A DNA stretch of 64,000 nt from Halichondria panicea (taxonomy: Eukaryota > Porifera > Demospongiae > Suberitida > Halichondriidae): NCBI RefSeq assembly GCF_963675165.1, contig NC_087377.1, positions 5,456,042 to 5,520,041 of the forward strand, in the 5' to 3' direction. Below are positions 12,601 to 52,390 of this stretch, one piece after another (position 1 is the stretch's first letter; each line of letters starts with the position of its first letter). A program made the position numbers and the translations under genes. Below the pieces are notes generated by a model. That model ran no database searches. It was given only the letters and a program-made list of their open reading frames with translations, and had not been told where the DNA came from.

Positions 12601-15600
12601 GGAATTTCGGAGTATGTTCAGTTTCTATATATACACTGTATTGTAGCTCTTGGTTCTATAGCTCATTGAATTTCAGCTCAATGTAATATTACTTATTATT
12701 ATATAGGCCATAGTCATGTATGTGCTTTAAGTGTTTGTTGTTACAGGGAAAGAGATCTCATGGTCAAAGGTTGGAACCGCAGCCACCTGGGAAACTGACA
12801 AAAAGAAACCAACGATGGTGCTCAACTTGTATGGCATGACAAAAGCTGACCAGAGAAGCATGGTAATTCACGAGTTTGGCCATGCTCTGGGCCTGGATCA
12901 CGAGCATCAGCGATCCGACTTCTGGGATGTGTTAAAGCGATTCATTATTCCAAAAAGTGATATGGAAGATGGAGTAAAGTGCAAAAAAGCTTGTCCCGCT
13001 GTGTTCAGATCCGACAATAACGATGCACCGTCGTATGGATCTGAATACGATCCTGACAGCATTATGCACTATTGGTGAGTGGTACTGCGGTGCTATGTGG
13101 ATCCAGATTAGGTCTAACTTACGTAGATCAAGCTAGGGACTAAAACATAATTATAGATCTGTCCAGCATCTGTAGAGGCCTAGGTTCTATTCTACCTACA
13201 TACAGGGTTCCACATGCATTAATAATGCGTATAGCTATAGCTATAGTGATACAAAGTTTATTTCTTGCCCAATTAATATAAACATGCATAGGTTTGACAG
13301 GAACTGGTTGCTACCGAAGTATCGAAAGCGAGCAGATGTGGCCAAGCATGTGACAAATGAGCGGGATAGGAAGGTGCTGTTTGGAGTTCATGACCGTGAC
13401 TACCACAATGGGCGGCAGGCAGAAAATCCTTCCAATCTTGACTACGAAACATTGAATGGAGCGTATGGTACTAAAGGTGAATTTTGGTACTGCATGTAGA
13501 TGGAGTTGATGTAATGATTACAGGGCCATGCACCAGAATTTAAGTACCGTATAATCTGGTTAATAAGCACACATCAACTAAGGCCACACCAATGTTTCAC
13601 GGATTTTCCGGGTCATATTTTTACAGAATGTCCAAAAAAATAAACCAATTAGTGGTCCAGGTCAGAGGTCAGAATAGCCACGTGATCTAGCAAAACGTTA
13701 CAACGTTTTGCTAAAGTGACTTTTTGTGGTGTGTTGTGACTCTGTTTGTGGTCAAATTTTTTTCTTTTTTTGCCTGCCACCCTGGTCTGTTTTTGAGGAT
13801 TAAAAGTCCGTGAAACATAAGATCAATTTGGTGTGACCTAATAGGTGCATACTGGTAAGCAGACCATGCGCCTTGATAGAAGGCGCATGGTTTTCTGCAA
13901 AGTTCTCTGCCCAACAACTGGTCTCCACACTTCTTTATAGATGTTAAGTCTCTTTCACTACCCGTAGTTGTCTTACTGCTGTCAGATATAACTATAATAG
14001 ACCTCTTGCAGACAAACGATCCAGCTATAGCTAATGAGGATTTGCTTCATTGAAATGTCATGGGCGTGGTTAATCTCTATAAGCGCATCTGGATAATAGG
14101 CGCATAGAGGCTTGCTTTTTTCCCTATAGGCGCATGCGCTTACTATACGCAGGGCCGTAAGAACCAGGGGGGCTGGGGGGGAAACTGCCCCCCCACTCTG
14201 AAAACCAGAGGGGCAGAGCCGCCCTGGTTTCAGACAGTGAAATGGGGTGGGGCGGCCCCTCTGCAGAGTCCAACAGATCCACAGTCGTCCTGCATGATGA
14301 TGATATTATATTTAGTGCCTTTTAAATGCATGTGGTTTGTTGCAACAACACTGCATGTACAGTAACTAAAGTAAGTTGATCCACATGCAGCTGAAATTTA
14401 TATAGCTAGAGCTCACTATGGCACAATATTCATTCCTTTTCTCTTCAGTACCTCAGCCTGCCCATGATGAAGAAGGTAGGCAAACTAAGACCTTCTTCAC
14501 GAAGCTCGATAATCCACAGCGTCTATTCTTACTTTATATACACAAGTTGCTAACTGATTCGCTTGACTTTGAAGCAGTTGCTCGTGACTTTGCTTCCAAA
14601 CACACGTCGAATAAACTATTTTGCTATAGCTTTCACATGCAGATTATTTCATTTATGTCTTTCTCCTGTTTATCTCTGAGAACATACAAAATGTAAAAAG
14701 TTCGCCTCCGGCAGAACGGGAGAGGGAATTTCCCCCTCCCGGACCCACCCCCTGCGTCACAAGGAGAGGGGCCATTCCTTTTTCTGCCCCCCCCACCTAA
14801 AAAATCTTCTTACGGCCCTGATACGGTACCAACTCAACAATTTTTAGGTCTTACGCCATAATTGTAATATTTTTTCTGCCACTTATAAAAAGACGTGTTT
14901 GTGGTCGTCTATATATATACTTTTTGGCCTATAATAACTATTACACGTATGCATATAATTATAGCTGTACTGGATGTATAACTGTCGCAACTGTAAATAC
15001 AGAGACCAAAAATTGAACTGTAGATCCACCTGTGTACTAAAAGTTTGCACTCAAAACAAAGTGCGCCATTTTGCAAGTGTAATTCCTTTTTCGAGTGCTG
15101 CATATAATTACATCAACTATGATACTATCATTGGAACAAGCGAAGCAAGCATGCATGTATACCTAGTACATTGTATCATGGACCGGCACAATAATTGTAA
15201 CTATTATGCTTTTAATTTGGTACTCTGATTTACCAACTTCCACGCAATAAGCCAGCTAATTTACACATCCAGCTCAGAAAGGAAACAAGGACTCCTGAGG
15301 TCACACACAAACAGCATGCAGCTAACTTGATTGCTATATAAGCACTATAGGTTGTTTTTCTTCTTACTGCTTGTATTTGCGTCAAGCAAGAGCCATATCA
15401 ACTTTTGATTATGTTCTCCTGCCAGACTGTGCATGCACCCAGCTTTTTCGTCATAAAATTGTAGGTTATATCTACTGCTGCATGCATGTGTGTATCATTT
15501 TTGGCAGCAACATTGTAAGATGCTGAACTTTCTCATGACAATTATATACAATGGCTACACCTTCTAAGATATCAAGCAGCTAGCATTTATCATGCCAATA

Positions 15601-19533: not shown

Positions 19534-19612
19534 ATTACACGATGTCATAAATAAATACAGGGTGTGCTATTAATTACCACTCACTAGACTTTGATCGTAA
19601 TTATGACTGTAG

Positions 19613-19992
19613 GTGCTCAGAGTGAACCTAAACTTGTTACCAGAACTGAAGAGGCAACACAATCTGGTCGAAAAGGCGGAAGAGATCCACCTGCTAGCAG
19701 CCCAAAGAGAACAAAAGCAGGAAAGATCGAAGGTGAGCAAGTTCTCATGAAGATTGGCCGCGAGCTTGGAGACCAGTGGATGGATGTTGGTGTGGCATTA
19801 GGAATGAAATTCATGGACCTTAAAAACACAATTGAAAATAACCCCAAAATAAAGCACCACCTCAAACCAATGGAGATGTTGCAGAAGTGGCAAAGTAAAG
19901 CTGGTGACTCTTTTACGTATGCAACACTGGCGTCAGCACTGGAAGAAGTTGGCCTCGATACTTGTGCACAAACACACTGTTATGAACAATGA
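19613..19992 (+). CDS. Terminal death-domain exon (copy 1)
   Basis: Phase-1 exon after the acceptor at 19611-19612, ending with TGA at 19990. It encodes a basic Ser/Pro-rich linker (GRKGGRDPPASSPKRTKAGK) followed by a death domain: IGRELGDQWMDVGVALGMKF, then LKPMEMLQKWQSKAGDSF and TYATLASALEEVGL, the expected six-helix pattern with the W and the L-x-x-L-x-x-A spacing. The copy-2 protein (29056-29435) differs at only three residues that I can see, although surrounding introns are full of indels, which suggests purifying selection or gene conversion. Its upstream death-domain exon is broken in this copy. The family makes homotypic contacts in apoptotic and immune signalling. Confidence 0.75.
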
Positions 19993-28730: not shown

Positions 28731-29435
28731 TTGACTAGCGCAAATACCAAGTGGTACAATATTGCATTCGCTTTGGGGTTGGGTATTGACACTTTGAATG
28801 GAATTAAAAATAAATATCGTGGAAAAACTGGCAAAGCTAGCACTCGATCTCCAGGAAATGCTTCAAAATTGGTTAATAATTATAGAGAAGCAGACCAACC
28901 TGGGAGAAGCTTCTTTACGCTCTCTAACTGTTGGAATGAGTGTGCTGGCAACAATTAACACGATATTATAAATAAATACAGAGTGCATGTGCTATTAGTT
29001 ACCGCTCACTAGACTTTGCATATACCTGATCGTAATTATGATTCAATGACTACAGGTACTCAGAGTGAACCTAAACTTGTTACCAGAACTGAAGAGACAA
29101 CACAATCTGGTCGAAAAGGCGGAAGAGACCCACCTGCTAGCAGCCCAAAGAGAACAAAAGCAGGAAAGATTAAAGGTGAGCAAGTTCTCATGAAGATTGG
29201 CCGCGAGCTTGGAGACCAGTGGATGGATGTTGGTGTGGCATTAGGAATGAAATTCATGGACCTTAAAAACACAATTGAAAATAACCCCAAAATAAAGCAC
29301 CACCTCAAACCGATGGAGATGTTGCAAAAGTGGCAAAGTAAAGCTGGTGACTCTTTCACGTATGCAACACTGGCGTCAGCACTGGAAGAAGTTGGCCTCA
29401 ATACTTGTGCACAAACACACTGTTATGAACAATGA
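28731..29435 (+). CDS. Tandem death-domain gene, two 3' exons (copy 2)
   Basis: Exon 28731 to about 28941 follows a pyrimidine tract and CAG and encodes a death-fold segment (TKWYNIAFALGLGIDTLNGI, then FFTLSNCWNECAG). Exon 29056-29435 encodes a basic Ser/Pro linker and a second death domain (GDQWMDVGVALGMKF, LQKWQSKAG, TYATLASALEEVGL), ending in TGA. A weak donor at 28941 (GAGT|GTGCTG) keeps the frame; otherwise the first exon would end at TAA 28956. The architecture resembles adaptor-like proteins that work by homotypic death-domain contacts (family knowledge); partner and pathway are unknown. Upstream exons were not found. The copy-1 version has a broken first exon. Confidence 0.7.
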
Positions 29436-38690: not shown

Positions 38691-41220
38691 CACCTACCTA
38701 CACACGTGTGCTGTCTCCATGATTGGTAACTAAACAGTTGTAGAGAGCATTATGATCCTGGGAAAAATGAGGCGCCATTTTGAATAATGCTAGCTTAATC
38801 AAAGGTTATGGCAATTGACCCTTTAATGAGTCCCCATGCATGCATGCACCCTCTTTAAACATGTCACCTGAATCCACATGTCAAAATTAAAGGTGTACCG
38901 TATAACGGGTAATTTTCTCATTGGTGCACATTTTTGTATGAACTATATACCTGTTTAAATTTTGTATTTTGCAGCTCCTATAATAGCTCATCTGTTTCTG
39001 AGATAATTATATAGCCTCAAAACAAACTGTAGATTGTTTCATAACTGCAGTATTTCATGATTCCACTATCTTATACGTATATGCAGTTCACTATACCTAT
39101 ACCTATACATGCAGTCGATATAGTAATTTACGATGAAATATAACAACGTGAATTTACGATGGAATATGACAGCATGTATGATGTCATAATTATAACATCG
39201 TCCACGATGGCATATTTCATCCGAAATTACTACATGCACAACATAGTATAAGGATGATGATTTTTGACAATACATGTATTGTCAAAAATCATCATCATAA
39301 TTATACTGGCACTGCTATTCCTCAGAGGTCAAAAGGCAACAAGTAATAGTTGTGACACATGGGGCCTAAGTTACTACTGAGCCAATATTATTATATCCCA
39401 TGTGGCACAACTATTACTTGTTTTCATTGACCTGAATTCCTATACATGCACTTATCAGCCACTGTAGTGGGTATGGTGTGTAAACAATCACTGAGCCATT
39501 GTTATCGGTGGTATTCCTTCTGGTGAGAGAGGTATTTGCTTTTCACATCACCTGTTTACCAGAAGCCCAACTGCAAGTGCTTTCGGAAGTAAGGTGCCTG
39601 CATGTACGTTATTATAAGGAAACTGTTCGTTTACCATGAAAAAGTAAATTGTATATAATTATCATTATACAGGTGTATATAATTATTCTGAAATTTTTGG
39701 CCATATGCATGTCGAATGTCACACTCCCATGCAAAGTGCTTGATGGATTACAACTGCTGGAGACATGTGTATCTATATAATTATAGCCGCACTAGGGATA
39801 CAGTAATGCTGTGCGTGCATGTGTGCATGTATTCCAGCTGTAATTGCTCCAACGAGACGAAAACTAACAGCGGTTTCTAGCAACGTTCTCTTGGATTTTG
39901 ATTCGTGGATTTGCAAACTAAAGCTTTCTTCTCGAGAGTCATGGTGAAGGCTGTTGCAGTCTCCTTAGAATCTTTCATATAGCATCGTCTGTTCGCATAA
40001 AGACTCTACCGTATAGCGGGTAATTTTTGTGGGGTAAAAATTTCAAACACTGATTTTTGTGAGTAAAAATTTTGTTTGACTTTATTGCCTGTACTGTATA
40101 TCGAGGCAATGTATTGCATGCATTGTTCCGGTATAACCCATGCCTACATAATTATAATATACATGTACAACAGTAAATTGATATGCATGGTTGTAAATAA
40201 GGTGACAATTATTTTCACAGGTAGATTTGTTTGCATTTTCACTGTTTAGCTCATTTTGCTGGTATTACATTCTGCAAATCATAGATCTATTACTCGCCAG
40301 TGGTTTTAATGAGCATTTTTTATCTGCGAGTACACATTTTCCGATATTTTACTCTCATTCGCACAAATAGCATGCAGAAATGATGATATGACACAAGTCA
40401 TGGATAATGACTAGATCTACTCATGAATAATTATACTTTCAAAAGTGGGTGGTACTATGAATTACTCAAAAGAGGTGGATAAGACAATGAAAAGTATAGA
40501 TCTGTAGCTAACAGAATCAATGTAATAAGTCAAGAGAATTGTTTTAATTACTGTGCAATATCAAATTGAGGAGCAATGTGAGTTAGTACTGGATCAGTAT
40601 ATAGCAGCTTCTCAGCTGCTTATTATTATTGTTTCCTATAGATATATAGAATCTCTATCTATATTCTTACACTAGTTCACCATCGATGATTTTAAAAACT
40701 TGACAAGCGAGAGACTGAGTAGATCTAAATCTAGAACACTGTTTCCTACAATGCGGTGTTTAAACTGTATGCCAAGAAAACTTTACTTATAATATTATTA
40801 CTAATAGTCACTGGCATATCTGAAGTTACGTTGTATTAAGTCACTAGATCTACTAAATCCTGTTTTACCAATCAGATCAAGGATTGACAAAATAAAAAGA
40901 AGCGTATGCGTTCTCTTACAGTAGGACGCATTTATAACTAATAGTCAGCCTAACTGTGGCTGCTGTTAGCCAGTCAAGGAGCTATAGTAAGTCGAGTTGA
41001 CTGCACTAGTGCTGTGCAACCTTTTTCTTGTTCTTTTAGCAACGTTCTTGGAGCAAGCCAAACAAAAATTCATAGCAGCTAGTCAAGCGTTTACGGTTGA
41101 CCTTTTGCATGCGTTGGAAGTGACACTGACGTAATGACAATTAACATTCCATTGTGGAATGACCTCTAGACTATAAAGTGCTCAGACTGACTCTCCAAGG
41201 CAGGCTGATTCATGAGACTA
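38691..41220. other. Repeat-rich spacer upstream of the 2A/death-domain gene
   Basis: Contains a perfect palindrome at 39251-39297 (GATGATTTTTGACAATACAT centre), a second foldback at 39338-39423 built on AGTTGTGACACATG (a relative lies at 48361-48470), the dispersed repeat 39424-39575, a partial CCGTATAGCGGGTA MITE at 40007-40080, and a repeat at 39830-39999 that recurs at 55289-55490. No coding frame recognised. Confidence 0.55.
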
Positions 41221-41354
41221 CCGTAAAACCTCGATTTAAGGCGACACTTTTAAATAATTACGTTTTGCGAAAGTAGTTTTATGTACACAAAAAAATGGGC
41301 GAAACGTCCAAGTGTCGCATATTTAGAGGGTCGCCATAAATAGAGGTTTTACGG
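41221..41354. repeat. MITE just upstream of the 2A gene
   Basis: Inverted ends CCGTAAAACCTCGATTTA and TAAATAGAGGTTTTACGG between TA dinucleotides, with inner GCGACACTTTTAAATAATTA. It ends 67 bases before the start codon at 41422 and so lies in the promoter or 5' leader. Related sequence is nested at 53812-54137. Confidence 0.8.
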
Positions 41355-41421
41355 TAAGAGTGATTATTAAGTGAAATTTTCCAGCAATAAATGTTTTCAT
41401 GCATGTATTCCAGCTAGATGC

Positions 41422-43064
41422 ATGGAGGATTGGCCGGCTTATGAAAGCAACTGCAGCTCAGTTGAATCAAGTCTGTTGGCTAAAGATGCTACCACCTATA
41501 TTGATATTAAGTGCTTAGCAATGGTTAAATCAATCCAAGACAGATTCAATTTTAGGAATGTTCCTCCCTCAAATAACTATTACTACGAAGATGTAGGTTC
41601 CGATCATGAAGAACCAGTGACTAGCACAGCTATTCATAGCCCTAATCACTTGAAAAGAGTTTGTTTTGGTTTCACAACTACTGTGCTGATTGTGATTGGA
41701 GCATTAGTCGTTTTTCTTCTCCTGTTATTGGCCGGAGATGTGGAGATAAACCCTGGACCTGGACTAGGTATATATTTCCTGATGTTTTAATTATGATACT
41801 ATTTCACTTAATGTGATGCAGATACTGTTCTGACTGTCTCTGACCTATTTGAGGTGTGTGAGAGGGTGAAGAGTGCTAGTCCGAACTGGTTCAACTTGGG
41901 ACTGGCGTTGAAGCTGAGCTATACCGATTTAACCAACTTTCATGAGATGTACGATGACAATTATGTGTGTTTGCGTGAGGTCCTAGCTCATCGACTGCAG
42001 ACAGGTGTTCCTCTAACTTGGGGAGGTATATGTACTGCTCTCAGGCACTCTACAGTGGCAAGAAATGATGAAGCTGAGGAGATAGAGGAGTACATGTATG
42101 CACAAAGTAAGTAGCTGTGTGTAAGTAATGGCATACGTCTCTAATGATGCATAATTTTACATATAAATTACATGCACACATTTGCAACAGGTAGAGAGAA
42201 AGAAGCACTCAAGGTAAATCATTGCATTGGGTATAGTACCTATAGGACAGGTTACCATAAATTGCATTCAACATGTATGAGCCATGCACAGTTGATTTGG
42301 TATCAAGAGTCTATAATAAAGCATTAATTTACTTCAGTGTGTATTTGGAAAGTAACGTTACTTCCTGCTTTGTAACTGATCAATCCGAGTGCTTGGAGCC
42401 GCCACTTGCCTCGAGGCAGCGATAATGTTATTACCAAATTGTCATTTATTGATTGATCATGCGTTACAAACAGGAAGTCACGTTACTCTCTGAATACATT
42501 TGATGCAATTAAGGCAAGACTTTGTTGGATCTCTTTTATTATGGATTAATAATTATATTCTTGTTACTACAACTATTACTAGGGAATTTAAATTTTAAAA
42601 ATAGAGCAGCGCTGAATTATTAATCTGCATGAGTGAACCTTCCCAGCTTTTTCATATAATTATACAGATAACTCAAAGCACTCAGAAAAGCGATTCATCA
42701 GACGGTAAGATTTTATTATTATTATTTTTTATGTTTGTTAATAATTATGATGCTATAGTTATTGATTATCATTGTGCTCCAGATTCTGTTCTGACTGTTT
42801 CTGACCTACTTGAGGTGTGTGAGAGGGTGAAAAGTGCTAGTCCGAACTGGTTCAGCTTGGGACTGGCGTTGAAGCTGAGCTATACCGATTTAACCAACTT
42901 TCGTGAGACGTACCGTGATAACAATGATGTGTGTTTGCGTGAGGTCCTAGCTCATCGACTTCAGTCAGGTGTTCCTCTAACTTGGGGAGGTATATGTACT
43001 GCTCTCAGGCACTCTACAGTGAGTAGAAATGATGTAGGTGAAGCAATAGAGGAACACTTTCATG
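41422..43064 (+). CDS. Membrane segment - 2A-like peptide - two tandem death domains
   Basis: Exons 41422-41767, 41822-42106, 42191-42213, 42668-42704 and 42783-43064 join in phase; the first intron is 54 bases. Residues 1-80 are unremarkable and acidic. A hydrophobic segment (TTTVLIVIGALVVFLLLLLA) runs directly into GDVEINPGP, the canonical D(V/I)ExNPGP 2A motif, then GLG and the first death domain (VCERVKSASPNWFNLGLALK, TWGGICTALRHSTV). A short Ser/Thr linker (REKEALK, ITQSTQKSDSSD) precedes a second, nearly identical death domain. Known of 2A: ribosomes skip the last Gly-Pro bond, releasing two proteins. Inferred here: a membrane peptide plus a free cytosolic death-domain protein, or an N-terminal targeting signal used only without skipping. 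The donor at 43064 implies further exons; otherwise read-through stops at 43121. I started at the Met after the CAG at 41413. Confidence 0.82.
41737..41760 (+). other. 2A-like ribosome-skipping motif
   Basis: Codes for DVEINPGP preceded by LLLLLAG. All residues of the D-(V/I)-E-x-N-P-G-P consensus are present. The Leu-rich lead-in is the form known from metazoan 2A sequences in non-LTR retrotransposons and sea-urchin NLR genes (general knowledge). Confidence 0.9.
42344..42504. repeat. Palindromic MITE in the intron between the two death domains
   Basis: AAAGTAACGTTACTTCCTG on the left pairs with CAGGAAGTCACGTTACTCT on the right, followed by TGTAAC...TGATCAATC on both arms; the loop is about 80 bases. 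It is non-coding. Confidence 0.75.
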
Positions 43065-44454: not shown

Positions 44455-45933
44455 TCACTCTTTTGTACATTGGTTCTCACAGTTGTCAAAAGAAATTTTA
44501 TTCGGATTTCCAGAGCTAGTGAGTCTGCTAGTCTCTTCTTTTGCAATGACTTCGAAGTCCCGTTTAGAAGAACAAGCAATAATATCAGACACTGACTGTT
44601 TCTGTTCCATGGAAGTGCGTTCATACACTCGTAGACCTTCTGTACTGCGATGACCAGTACGTTCAGCTATTAACTTCTCTGGAACATTTGCAGCAAACAA
44701 TCGTGTGGCCCCAGTAGCCCGCAGACTGTGATTTGTTTTTCCATATATGCCAACTTGCTCACACATTAGTTTGACAAGGTTTCCTAGGAGCTTTTTGCCA
44801 CAGGTCTGCATCGTGAACCAACAAGCGTCTGCATCTGTAGGAAGCCTTTCCTTGGCTTTCCAGTAGAAGGAATCGTCTTCCTTGGCTTTGGTAGGCAATT
44901 TATCTAAATATTTCTTCAGCAAATACACATAGCAGCGATCGCCTGAGGATGGGTCAGAGAAATGCCTGATAACTTTGTTGTCGGTGTTGTCTTTATAGCT
45001 TCCTGATCTATTCTTCGAGCCAAACTCAATGTATTCGACATATTCACGCTTATTTTCAACTCCAAAAGTGAATTGGGATAACTTAAGAGCCCTGTGCCCG
45101 CGCCCTCCTCTCAGGCATAAAACTTTTCCGTTCATGAAGAAGATGGTAGAAAATAGACATTTCGGAGTTGAAGATCCCAATACTTCACGATCCCAGAGTT
45201 TATCTTCTTCCTCGTAGGTAATCACTTCCGCATGTTTTACTGAGGAACCAACACCATCTTCTCGTAACTGGCGTGAAACAGTGTCTCTAGTCCCTCTTAG
45301 TCCATCGAAACGATAATCATTCTCGTCAAAAAAGTTTGGGAGAATAGGGTCTACCGACGTCATGTGACGTCTAATTCCAGCCAAAAGCAAATCGATCGTT
45401 TTTGAAAGGTAGGGACTGCCATTTTTTTTTTTAGCTTCCATTACAAACAGAGAAAGCCACTTGTTCAGAGCAGTAGCATCAACACAAGTGAGAACATCAA
45501 TAGGTACCTTATCATCAGTTTCTTTATGGGAGCTGTTTCTCCATTCACACCAACAGTAGAACACTTGAAGGGCCCAACTCGTATTATTCTTAGTGTTTGC
45601 AGGTACAAAGCCCTTGGATGCAGTAGCCAGAGAGGTAAGGTTGGTAACTGTACTGCCAAATCGAGATGCACCAGTAGATATGCTCGCACTAAAACTCGCC
45701 GCACAATTAGTCACGTCTTGAAGTTCCTGGTACTTCACTCGCTTTGCTAGACGTGGTTTGGAGACATAGGACAGTGCCTCAGTGCCTAAAATGAGTTTGT
45801 CAGTAGGTATGGCATCCCAGTCAATTTTTGCTGCATCTTTTTCGGCTCGCAACATTATGGAGGTACTTACTACCTCTTCCCAGTCGTCGAGATCTTCAAC
45901 CGTTACATCAGAGAAATCCAAATCTAGAGCCAT
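44455..45933 (-). CDS. Crypton-type tyrosine recombinase (DUF3504-like), intact
   Basis: A single 492-codon frame. The N-terminal 100 residues are acidic (LDFSDVTVEDLDDWEE) and Ser-rich. The middle has a helical core-binding region (ALQVFYCWCEWRN). The C-terminal half is the catalytic domain: LCLRGGRGHRALKLSQ carries the first catalytic Arg, HSLRATGATRLF the H-x-x-R box, ERTGHRSTEGLRVYERTS the second His and the nucleophile Tyr. All four positions are present. This is the domain that ZMYM2/3/4, QRICH1 and KCTD1 relatives took from Crypton transposons (known). It could be a living Crypton or a domesticated copy. There are no zinc fingers, which favours a transposon (inference). Its ATG lies only 30 bases from a 1.2-kb foldback, which must supply its promoter or 5' leader. 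Confidence 0.85.
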   Translation of the reverse strand: MALDLDFSDVTVEDLDDWEEVVSTSIMLRAEKDAAKIDWDAIPTDKLILGTEALSYVSKPRLAKRVKYQELQDVTNCAASFSASISTGASRFGSTVTNLTSLATASKGFVPANTKNNTSWALQVFYCWCEWRNSSHKETDDKVPIDVLTCVDATALNKWLSLFVMEAKKKNGSPYLSKTIDLLLAGIRRHMTSVDPILPNFFDENDYRFDGLRGTRDTVSRQLREDGVGSSVKHAEVITYEEEDKLWDREVLGSSTPKCLFSTIFFMNGKVLCLRGGRGHRALKLSQFTFGVENKREYVEYIEFGSKNRSGSYKDNTDNKVIRHFSDPSSGDRCYVYLLKKYLDKLPTKAKEDDSFYWKAKERLPTDADACWFTMQTCGKKLLGNLVKLMCEQVGIYGKTNHSLRATGATRLFAANVPEKLIAERTGHRSTEGLRVYERTSMEQKQSVSDIIACSSKRDFEVIAKEETSRLTSSGNPNKISFDNCENQCTKE

Positions 45934-45963
45934 CGCTCATATAGTCATAGCTAGCTCACTAGC

Positions 45964-47198
45964 ACTACAGTGCAACAACCAAAGAGAGTAGAACTTTTGT
46001 TTTTTTACGTTTTTGTGTATATCTTCTAAACTAAATGTGATTGTATCAATTTGAGTGCAGGTACTGAAAGTTCAACTATTGGCGCTTCCAGTGGACCACC
46101 ACCTGTTACATCATATGACATCATCATTCCAAAATGGCTGCTAGAATATGTGTACATTGGAAAATATGTTAGGCATGAAACTATCTTATATGTTTGAGTT
46201 AAGATCTGAAATTTGTTGTGCAAGTACTTCATTACCTTGCACATCTTTTGAGCTCCAGCGGAAGTGCAGGCTGTTAGTAGGTTCTGAGATACACAGAATT
46301 TTGTAAATATTTAGTAGCAAATGTGTTAGGCATTGATTTTTTGAGTTTGTGCTAGTTAAGGTCTGATTTTTGAGGAGCATGTACTGCAATAGTATACTTT
46401 TCATTTGTACTAACTTACAGGAGCTAGACAAGTCTCTTCTTTGCTAGAGCGGCCCTTCTTGTCAAAAATGGTGATTTTGCTCCATTTTGCTGCTCTTTGC
46501 CTGTTTGTGCTGACGTAAACAATGATATTCATTGATTTGTGACATCACAAATCATCTTGTCTTTATTTGCTACATCCAAGCTCATGTGATGTCTAACCTG
46601 GCAACTACACCCAGTTGATCAGTCATAATGTGTCACAGGGGCGTGGCAATTTACACTACGCAACAGAAACCGTGAAAATCAGCTAAAATTACCATTTTTG
46701 GCAAAAAGGGCCGCTCTAGCAAAGAAGAGACTGGTCTAGCTCTTGTAAGTTAGTACAAATGAAAAGTATACTATTGTAGTACATGCTCCTCAAAAATCAG
46801 ACCTTAACTAGCATAACTCAAAAAATCAATGCCTAACACATTTGCTACTAAATATTTACAAAATTCTGTGTATCTCAGAACCTACTAACAGCCTGCACTT
46901 CCGCTGGTGCTCAAAAGATGTGCAAGGTAATGAAGTACTTGCACAACAAATTTCAGATCTTAACTCAAACATATAAGATAGTTCCATGCCTAACATATTT
47001 TCCAATGTACACATATTCTAGCAGCCATTTTGGAATGATGATGTCATATGATGTAACAGGTGGTGGTCCACTGGAAGCGCCAATAGTTGAACTTTCAGTA
47101 CCTGCACTCAAATTGATCCAATCACATTTAGTTTAGAAGATATACACAAAAACGTGAAAAAACAAAAGTTCTACTCTCTTTGGTTGTTGCACTGTAGT
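45964..47198. repeat. Large foldback, arms of about 515 bases
   Basis: Left arm 45964-46480 and right arm 46683-47198 are near-identical inverted copies, from ACTACAGTGCAACAACC outward to GCTAGAGCGGCCCTT at the loop side; mismatches are sparse. The loop of about 200 bases is unique and GC-richer. Frames 46026-46244 and 46918-47136 are the same arm read twice and are not genes. Confidence 0.9.
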
Positions 47199-47199
47199 A

Positions 47200-48286
47200 C
47201 AGTAGAACCTCCATTATCCGGCCCTCCATTATCCGGAACCTCGATTATCCGGCTTGGCAGTTTTCTTGTTATCAGATCAGAAAATGGGCGTGTCCCTCAA
47301 ACGCGCATGCGCGTTGCAGCTGTTACCATGGAGACATGCCTGCTTATCTTCTGCGCATGCGCAGACAACCATGTGGCTAGACTCGCAAGCCACTCCCTTT
47401 TCTCTGATTGGACGGGGGCGGGAGAAAAGGGACTGGTGACTCTGGGCTACAGCTTGTGTAAATCAGGAATGCTATTAAATATTAATGTCACGTGCAAATT
47501 ATCCAATTTATTCTGATGCATCAAAAGCTAAAGACACACAGAAGACAAGTATACAGATCTATCTAGCCAGCCTTTTTTGATATTATAGATCCTTGTACCA
47601 GTGTCTGTTGTGCCACAACTTGTGGATTAGCATGGAACAGCTGATGAACGTAGAAATCTTGGCAGTCCTTCTTTGAACCGAGGAGTTCGAGTGGCAGCGA
47701 TTTAAGACAGCTTGTACAAGTCTGACTACTCTCAATTCAACTTCTGCCCTCTGCCATTATCTGTCTTGTATTGTACAGGTTATTAAAAGCTTTAGGCAAC
47801 CAATGACTTTCGGCTGCCAGTTCTCATCACGTAAAACTAAAACAAGCTAATCTCTGCTGGTACATGGTGTGATGACTATATCCTAGCTGAATGCCTGATG
47901 TCTTTATTACTCCATCATCTTCTCTTTTCTAGCACTAGCATCATATCCATTCTCAAACTGTAACTAAGAAGCCCGCGATCACTTTTGCAGGGTACGCAAT
48001 TCTACTTAACCTCACGCAATTTTTGGATCACGTGGAAAAATCAATGAATAATCTCTACCCAAATTCTGATAGAGACACAAAATGTAGCCCAGAGTCACCA
48101 GTCCCTTTTCTCCCGCCCCCGTCCAATCAGAGAAAAGGGAGTGGCTTGCGAGTCTACCATGTGGCACTGCTGTTTATCAATAAAGTGGGTGGATCAAGGC
48201 GTGGTTTATCTATTCGATTATCCGGCATATTCACTTATCCGGCCTGCTTCTGGAACCAAGGTGTCCGGATAATCGAGGTTCTATTG
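47200..48286. mobile_element. Pogo/Tigger-like non-autonomous element, 1,087 bases
   Basis: Begins CAGTAGAACCTCCATTATCC and ends GGATAATCGAGGTTCTATTG between TA dinucleotides. The terminus motif is repeated two more times at the left (CTCCATTATCCGGAACC, CTCGATTATCCGG), and inner inverted copies (CAAGCCACTCCCTTTTCTCT) lie at 47388 and 48128. It has no transposase. It abuts the foldback directly, sharing the TA. Confidence 0.85.
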
Positions 48287-51819: not shown

Positions 51820-52390
51820 CCCATCAAATGTATCCAAGCATAAAAGAGTTAGAAGCAGATTCTATGAAGATGGAATCACAATTCTCCATGCTTGTGTCAG
51901 ACCTGTGTCGATCACTTCAAGTTCGACGAATTCCAAAAGATTCTTTAATTGCTAGTTTGATGAGGTTTAATTGTCTAAAGAAGGTGTTTGGAAGAAAAAA
52001 AAAAAAATCAGAGTGTTTTCAGAGCTCAACGAAGGAAATTGGAGGACTGCTCAACTAGTGAAAATGTTTGGCAAATTATTGGAGACTATTTCTCCTTCTT
52101 TAGGTATGACATGATTGAGCAGATTACACACAGCTTAGGATCAGACGAGGACAAGGACAAAATGAAAATGTACAAGATAAACTTTATTGAATATGCTAGA
52201 CGTCGACTAGTAAAATCTAACGGGGAAGTACCGTTTCTACAGTTTCTGTTGGATAGTTCATACGACGATTGTGAACTCAGTCATCTGAAACTGCTCGAAT
52301 GGAATCTACAATCAATTTTAAACTTGGATGATGAGGTTGTTTTAAAAGTACAGGGCCAATCAAGTGAAAGGGATTTTACGGCCAGTTCAG
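51820..52390 (+). CDS. Conserved helical protein exon, frameshifted at an A-run
   Basis: After the acceptor at 51818-51819 the frame reads MYPSIKELEADSMKMESQFS, then LVSDLCRSLQVRRIPKDSLI and NCLKKVFG. At an uninterrupted run of 13 A residues (51996-52008) the frame must change to continue as SVFRAQRRKLEDCSTSENVW, IIGDYFSFFRYDMIEQIT and FIEYARRRLVKSNGEV. Both halves look like one all-helical protein, and the YPSIKEL...FRYDMIEQI pattern recalls proteins I associate with sponge and cnidarian death-domain families, but I cannot name the domain. The exon ends at a good donor (TTCAG|GTGAGA, 52390). Upstream and downstream exons were not found. The run length suggests a sequencing or assembly slip, a recent mutation, or slippage. 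Confidence 0.55.

Follow-up and report, generated by a model that had tools for sequence, protein, structure and literature searches.

About 100 immune-type genes of the sponge Halichondria panicea probably follow a single plan, in which a membrane module, an exon ending in a 2A motif, and a death-fold protein are arranged in succession and split in translation. We give this reading a probability of roughly three in four. The gene from which the analysis starts lies in the window, i.e., the whole 64,000-nucleotide stretch analyzed here (C1:5456042-5520041 of the 131-Mb, 39-contig assembly). The evidence is laid out below, beginning with the motif across the genome.

The 2A Motif in the Sponge Genome

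The pattern D[VI]ExNPGP occurs at 116 sites in the genome, against 0.10 expected from base composition, and the reversed control pattern occurs at none in the same genome. We examined 107 of the 116 sites, seven of them reached through their death domains. Sorting by sequence gave families A (11 sites), B (19), C (11), D (43), E (9), F (2), G (2), and H (1), as well as three other sites and six retrotransposon-like ones (the letters A-H are our own, and the window gene belongs to family A). The retrotransposon-like class is defined by a cysteine-rich finger after the motif, a feature that we take to mark likeness to retrotransposons; 101 of the 107 examined sites fall outside this class. A degenerate form of the motif, GDVKPNPGP, stands behind a hydrophobic stretch at L114 (G000:C2:7790300-7796800), in a family-C cluster.

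Death Domains Downstream of the Motif

A death-domain profile was built from a seed of six domains (two of family A, two others of the window, one of family B, and one of family C) and searched over the stretch downstream of each site, up to 1.5 kb. A related death domain was found on the sense strand at no fewer than 74 of the 107 examined sites, a lower bound because some loci cover only ~0.5 kb downstream, while the same profile matched the antisense strand at none of the 107. By family, the downstream matches number 11 in A, 17 in B, 5 in C, 40 in D, and 1 in H, with none at the E, F, G, other, and retrotransposon-like sites; the seed favors A, B, and C, yet D and H, absent from it, were matched as well.

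Because the sites had been picked by their motif, pooled synonymous and non-synonymous counts over the motif were dropped and replaced by counting from the death domains, for which the best 150 of 541 candidates were scored. Among the death-domain matches listed, 42 lie on C14:0.5-1.63 Mb, and an exact 2A motif is found upstream of 41 of these (39 within 1.5 kb and two at 1.5 and 2.1 kb, with seven positions approximate). The 42nd has GNVEANPGP upstream, with N for D, as does the copy at C14:3451636; according to PMC12846837, N in that place of the motif is >95% active in the viral contexts tested.

Similarly, 11 of the 14 close family-A death domains listed follow a 2A exon within ~1.1 kb. 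The other three are the second domain of the window and the copies at C4:6784306 and C4:4052275, the latter containing a stop, and for these two copies no 2A was found upstream in the stretch searched. Related death domains also occur free of the motif: at L128, L129, and L131, three of six loci, none lies within 1.3-1.5 kb upstream.

The regions further downstream vary. A NACHT domain lies ~1-2.5 kb past several family-D sites and one F site, and 5.5 kb past the H site; Pfam confirms it in a D locus and an F locus (L112 and L118, respectively), and a search of L112 for LRR at E 0.01 found none. Past an E site (L117), Pfam reports Roc above the cut-off and COR-A below it, and past a B site (L115), ankyrin repeats, the membership of these domains in the 2A genes being putative in both cases.

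A Shared Exon and Splice Junction

The exon that carries the 2A motif ends just past it, at a donor shared among several families. A GT[AG] donor 4, 7, or 10 bases past the motif (phase-1) is present at every one of the 86 sites in families A-D and F, the distance being 7 in A, B, and D, 10 in F, and 4 in C. The same donor is found at one of the three other sites, at none of the 12 sites of E, G, and H, and at none of the six retrotransposon-like sites. The beginnings of the exons are also related: a start like MGI[GST]VELWRARIGLF is common to A and B, and WR.R.GL starts occur in F and H. In three family-A loci (L029, L042, and L043), the post-2A intron is open and in frame, so that its retention would give a linker and not a stop.

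In 10 of 12 NCBI-named family-D models, the annotated splicing connects the 2A with the death domain through the predicted junction; the two others (P0017 and P0069) begin downstream of the death domain, without the 2A. The arrangement proposed for the window in the initial annotation, i.e., membrane segment, 2A, and death domain, is in this respect a recurrent one, although the idea behind it is not new in kind, as discussed below. The C-terminal parts differ among the ten models: P0001-P0004 carry NACHT (precomputed annotation), P0028 has a dynamin-type GTPase C-terminal to the death domain, and Pfam matches below the cut-off were obtained for Roc in P0005 and P0032 and for ZU5 in P0018 (P0006 and P0008, isoforms of the P0005 gene, stand outside the Pfam scan). 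In the P0028 subgroup (G000:C14 ~1.22-1.31 Mb), the part upstream of the 2A contains a motif around DTPG..GEKQR, presumably a fragment of an EHD-type GTPase, so that the membrane module can in turn be joined to further parts.

Pfam searches of four front ends gave nothing above the cut-offs. The family-F front end, used as a query, retrieved nine proteins matched over 10-17% of the query region; none of the nine contains NPGP, and all begin downstream of where the 2A would sit.

The Window Gene

Proposed exon 1 of the window gene (41422..41767, plus strand), aligned with ten family-A paralogues, encodes a polar N-terminal stretch, a hydrophobic segment, and the 2A motif; its start codon is uncertain. 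The hydrophobic segment (41680..41736, plus strand) consists of 19 residues with a mean hydropathy of 3.02, probably spans the membrane, and is flanked by net charges of +2 on the N side and -2 on the C side. The D(V/I)ExNPGP core of 2A/StopGo peptides follows in frame within the open reading frame as DVEINPGP (41737..41760, plus strand), with the predicted skip site between the Gly codon at 41755-41757 and the Pro codon at 41758-41760. Exon 1 ends two codons and one base past the motif. The predicted 54-base intron behind it (41768..41821, plus strand; GTATAT..TGATGCAG) has consensus ends and, as in other family-A copies, a donor 7 bases past the motif; retaining this intron would bring a stop seven codons past exon 1. 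The first death domain is encoded by the exon at 41822..42106 (donor GTAAGT) and the second by the exon at 42783..43064 (donor GTGAG), both on the plus strand. The motif, hydrophobic segment, intron, and pair of death-like domains described in the initial annotation were all recovered, with coordinates exact to the base.

Pfam alone failed to confirm the two domains, the first scoring 12.3 bits for Death, below the curated cut-off of 22.6, and profile and fold were used for this reason. In a PDB profile search, death-domain proteins made up 19 of the 20 matched sequences (best E = 4.3e-5). An AlphaFold model of the death domain has six helices (pLDDT 95.6) and, as modeled, the death fold; death-domain entries fill the first 26 VIA rows, and a Foldseek search returned no E below 0.03. 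The profile search and the model place the death-like domains of the window with FADD death domains, from which they differ in being ~24% identical and under the Pfam cut-off.

A probable C-terminal domain (the ‘DYFSFF’ domain; 51846..52350, plus strand) lies at a distance and is broken at a run of A into two pieces in different frames (51846-51977 and 52000-52350). A similar further domain is found in a family-A locus (‘DYFSFF’) and a family-B locus, with 47% identity over 222 residues, and from these paralogues, we infer that the domain is part of the window gene. None of the 102 scored NACHT matches listed, a lower bound, falls within the window span. A protein search with the window gene gave 11 matches, five of them with the motif and none an NCBI-named protein.

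Several repeats and a probable mobile element lie near these exons. A MITE-like inverted repeat (41219-41356; 35-base arms, 86% complementary) leaves a gap of 66 bases to exon 1. The interval from the death domains to the probable C-terminal domain contains a 493-codon open frame (44458-45936, minus strand) with matches to DUF3504 and QRICH1 and weak matches to phage integrase, which we take to be a tyrosine-recombinase mobile element, probably Crypton-like. Large inverted repeats at 45964-47198 and 47378-48156 (arms of 384 bases at 99%, 141 bases at 92%, and 82 bases at 98% complementarity) occupy the same interval. Elsewhere in the window, two near-identical Pfam-type death-domain open frames ~9.4 kb apart (19588-19989 and 29013-29432) sit in a run of death-domain genes at approximately C1:5.39-5.57 Mb, and two similar open frames (710-1147 and 12731-13075) share the motif HEFGHALG, presumably zinc-protease-like.

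The window copy may be decaying. It could be a dying duplicate that makes no product and in which youth alone has preserved the 2A and the death domains, a serious possibility that we rate at somewhat under even odds, and one that concerns this copy only and not the family. The start motif of family A is absent from it, an inverted repeat stands just upstream of exon 1, and the DUF3504 frame and inverted repeats have been inserted ahead of a frame-changed C-terminal domain. The dN/dS of its death domains ranges from 0.30 to 1.09 against eight paralogues and is 0.70 for the two domains against each other. On the other hand, the 2A, both death domains, and the splice sites are intact, and the frame change sits in a run of A, presumably a common place for assembly errors. 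The family-level conclusion is independent of whether this copy works.

The Upstream Product and Its Topology

Under a threshold of mean hydropathy of at least 1.6 over 19 residues for the last segment before the motif, all sites qualify in A (11/11), B (19/19), F (2/2), G (2/2), and H (1/1), and all eight testable sites of the 11 in C. The threshold is reached by 23 of 43 sites in D (range 1.32-2.60), one of nine in E, none of the three other sites, and one of six retrotransposon-like sites. By hydropathy, the 2A lies near the N-terminus behind a hydrophobic, signal-like stretch. Two further hydrophobic segments are found upstream in seven of the eight NCBI models scanned, the exception being P0028, which has none.

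This stretch might act only as exit-tunnel context for the 2A, the upstream peptide being a non-membrane product that is discarded and the 2A serving to trim an N-terminal leader. Leucine-rich stretches ahead of the 2A are a known activating context (PMC12846837), and the stretch is below a hydropathy of 1.6 in 20 of 43 family-D and eight of nine family-E sites. We nevertheless find this unlikely: families A, B, F, and H reach values of 2.2-3.1 over 19 residues, and the two additional segments in seven of the eight NCBI models lie too far upstream to act on the 2A in the tunnel.

The flanking charges bear on orientation. The N side of the last segment is the more positive in 83 of the 84 copies tested, which comprise 11 of A, 19 of B, 8 of C, 43 of D, 1 of H, and 2 of F, one of these last being a tie, although the C side owes its -2 to the motif itself and the contrast thus leans on the N side. 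By positive-inside reasoning, this suggests an N-in, C-out topology, and the death domains of a chain that failed to skip would end up in the lumen or secretory path, much as in the sea urchin. The initial annotation had expected failed skipping to tether the death domains to a membrane; the charges point to a lumenal location in place of a tether on the cytosolic side. After release, the upstream peptide would end ~10 residues past the last segment, like a tail-anchored protein. According to de Felipe 2010 (PMC2978324), the 2A reaction is inhibited when certain upstream proteins are translocated, a possible concern for the sponge membrane-2A genes.

Less probable again is a reading in which the sponge 2A has no activity and the receptor is truly made as a fused membrane-death-domain chain. 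Activity of a 2A depends on its upstream context, and the NCBI models show a fused chain; however, the motif is retained in 41 of the 42 listed C14 copies, the remaining one having N for D, and the predicted topology would put a fused death domain in the lumen. That the motif belongs to a non-LTR retrotransposon open reading frame and precedes death domains by chance is highly improbable. In its favor, six of the 107 sites are retrotransposon-like by their cysteine-rich finger; against it, the shared donor and a related downstream death domain are both missing from all six and both present at the window site. There, a non-LTR retrotransposon 2A was considered and rejected, as no finger or reverse-transcriptase frame follows the 2A: the unspliced frame stops seven codons past the exon, and the spliced one continues into the death domain.

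Proposed Mechanism

The split of membrane module from death-fold protein, our preferred reading, can be rationalized into three steps. (i) A small membrane part with one to three hydrophobic segments would be made ahead of the 2A exon. (ii) The nascent 2A would be expected to prevent formation of the final Gly-Pro bond, the ribosome letting the membrane peptide go and then continuing on the same mRNA. (iii) One mRNA would, in this way, yield two proteins, one in the membrane and the other a free cytosolic death-domain protein starting with proline, while a failed skip would leave a fused chain in the secretory route, its death domains lumenal and unable to signal. Skipping, topology, and the fate of both products are what we infer from the sequences; a regulated ratio of the products, and with it the translational switch of localization proposed in the initial annotation, is speculative.

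More tentatively, and with rather less confidence than even odds would imply, the membrane-2A exon may be a shuffled module that heads several lines of death-fold receptors (A-D, F, and H, and possibly E and G) and provides, at a fixed ratio, two proteins: a small membrane one with a possible sensing or anchoring role and a cytosolic effector. The skip after the last membrane segment would then be an exit from the translocon that keeps the effector out of the ER, and its efficiency would set receptor dosage and could be a switch.

Relation to Known Systems

The closest precedent is the sea urchin. According to Roulston et al. 2016 (PMC4981915, Traffic), 2A-like sequences occur in 85 of 241 NLRs of Strongylocentrotus purpuratus, and 14 of 87 later NCBI entries carry them as 26-residue N-termini. 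One leader was tested, with ~80% skipping in vitro (a qualitative estimate); the skipped product was cytosolic and a non-skipping mutant mainly in the Golgi. The likeness extends to immune-type death-domain/NACHT proteins that begin with a hydrophobic leader followed by D(V/I)ExNPGP, and to the proposal of two products with different destinations, shown for one leader (PMC4981915). The two systems differ in that skipping was shown by experiment for the sea-urchin leader, whereas in the sponge it is predicted, and in the membrane part, which is longer in the sponge, with up to three hydrophobic segments in family D, than the 26-residue leader described there. Moreover, the sponge module also heads genes in which no NACHT was found and places its motif at an exon end with a shared donor, whereas the sea-urchin genes are NLRs.

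With 2A/StopGo peptides of viruses and non-LTR retrotransposons, the sponge sequences have in common the core octapeptide and its preceding leucine-rich stretch, but the 2A of the viral polyproteins described separates parts of a polyprotein, whereas the sponge 2A is predicted to separate a membrane module from a death-domain protein. Family D, with a death domain followed by NACHT, resembles the DEATH-NACHT-LRR receptors of Dysidea avara (NLRD, PMC12909245), and the main text of that paper, in the portions available, has no mention of 2A-like sequences or ribosome skipping. StopGo has been described as never or only rarely used in cellular organisms (PMC12846837). We found no sponge report of such 2A genes in the literature, to the extent that its texts were available, and the eukaryotic 2A catalogue of Rao et al. 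(Cell Rep 2025) may list cases. Sea urchins already furnish the principle; what the sponge adds is a new phylum, an occurrence that reaches past NLRs, and an upstream product containing between one and three hydrophobic segments.

If skipping is active, gene models with one fused membrane-receptor chain would be wrong, the location of the receptors would have to be re-predicted, and their predicted site of action would change. If the ~100 sponge loci are active, one animal would use StopGo across much of its receptor repertoire, in a phylum far from sea urchins, and one could test directly where cellular 2A sequences came from and what they are for.
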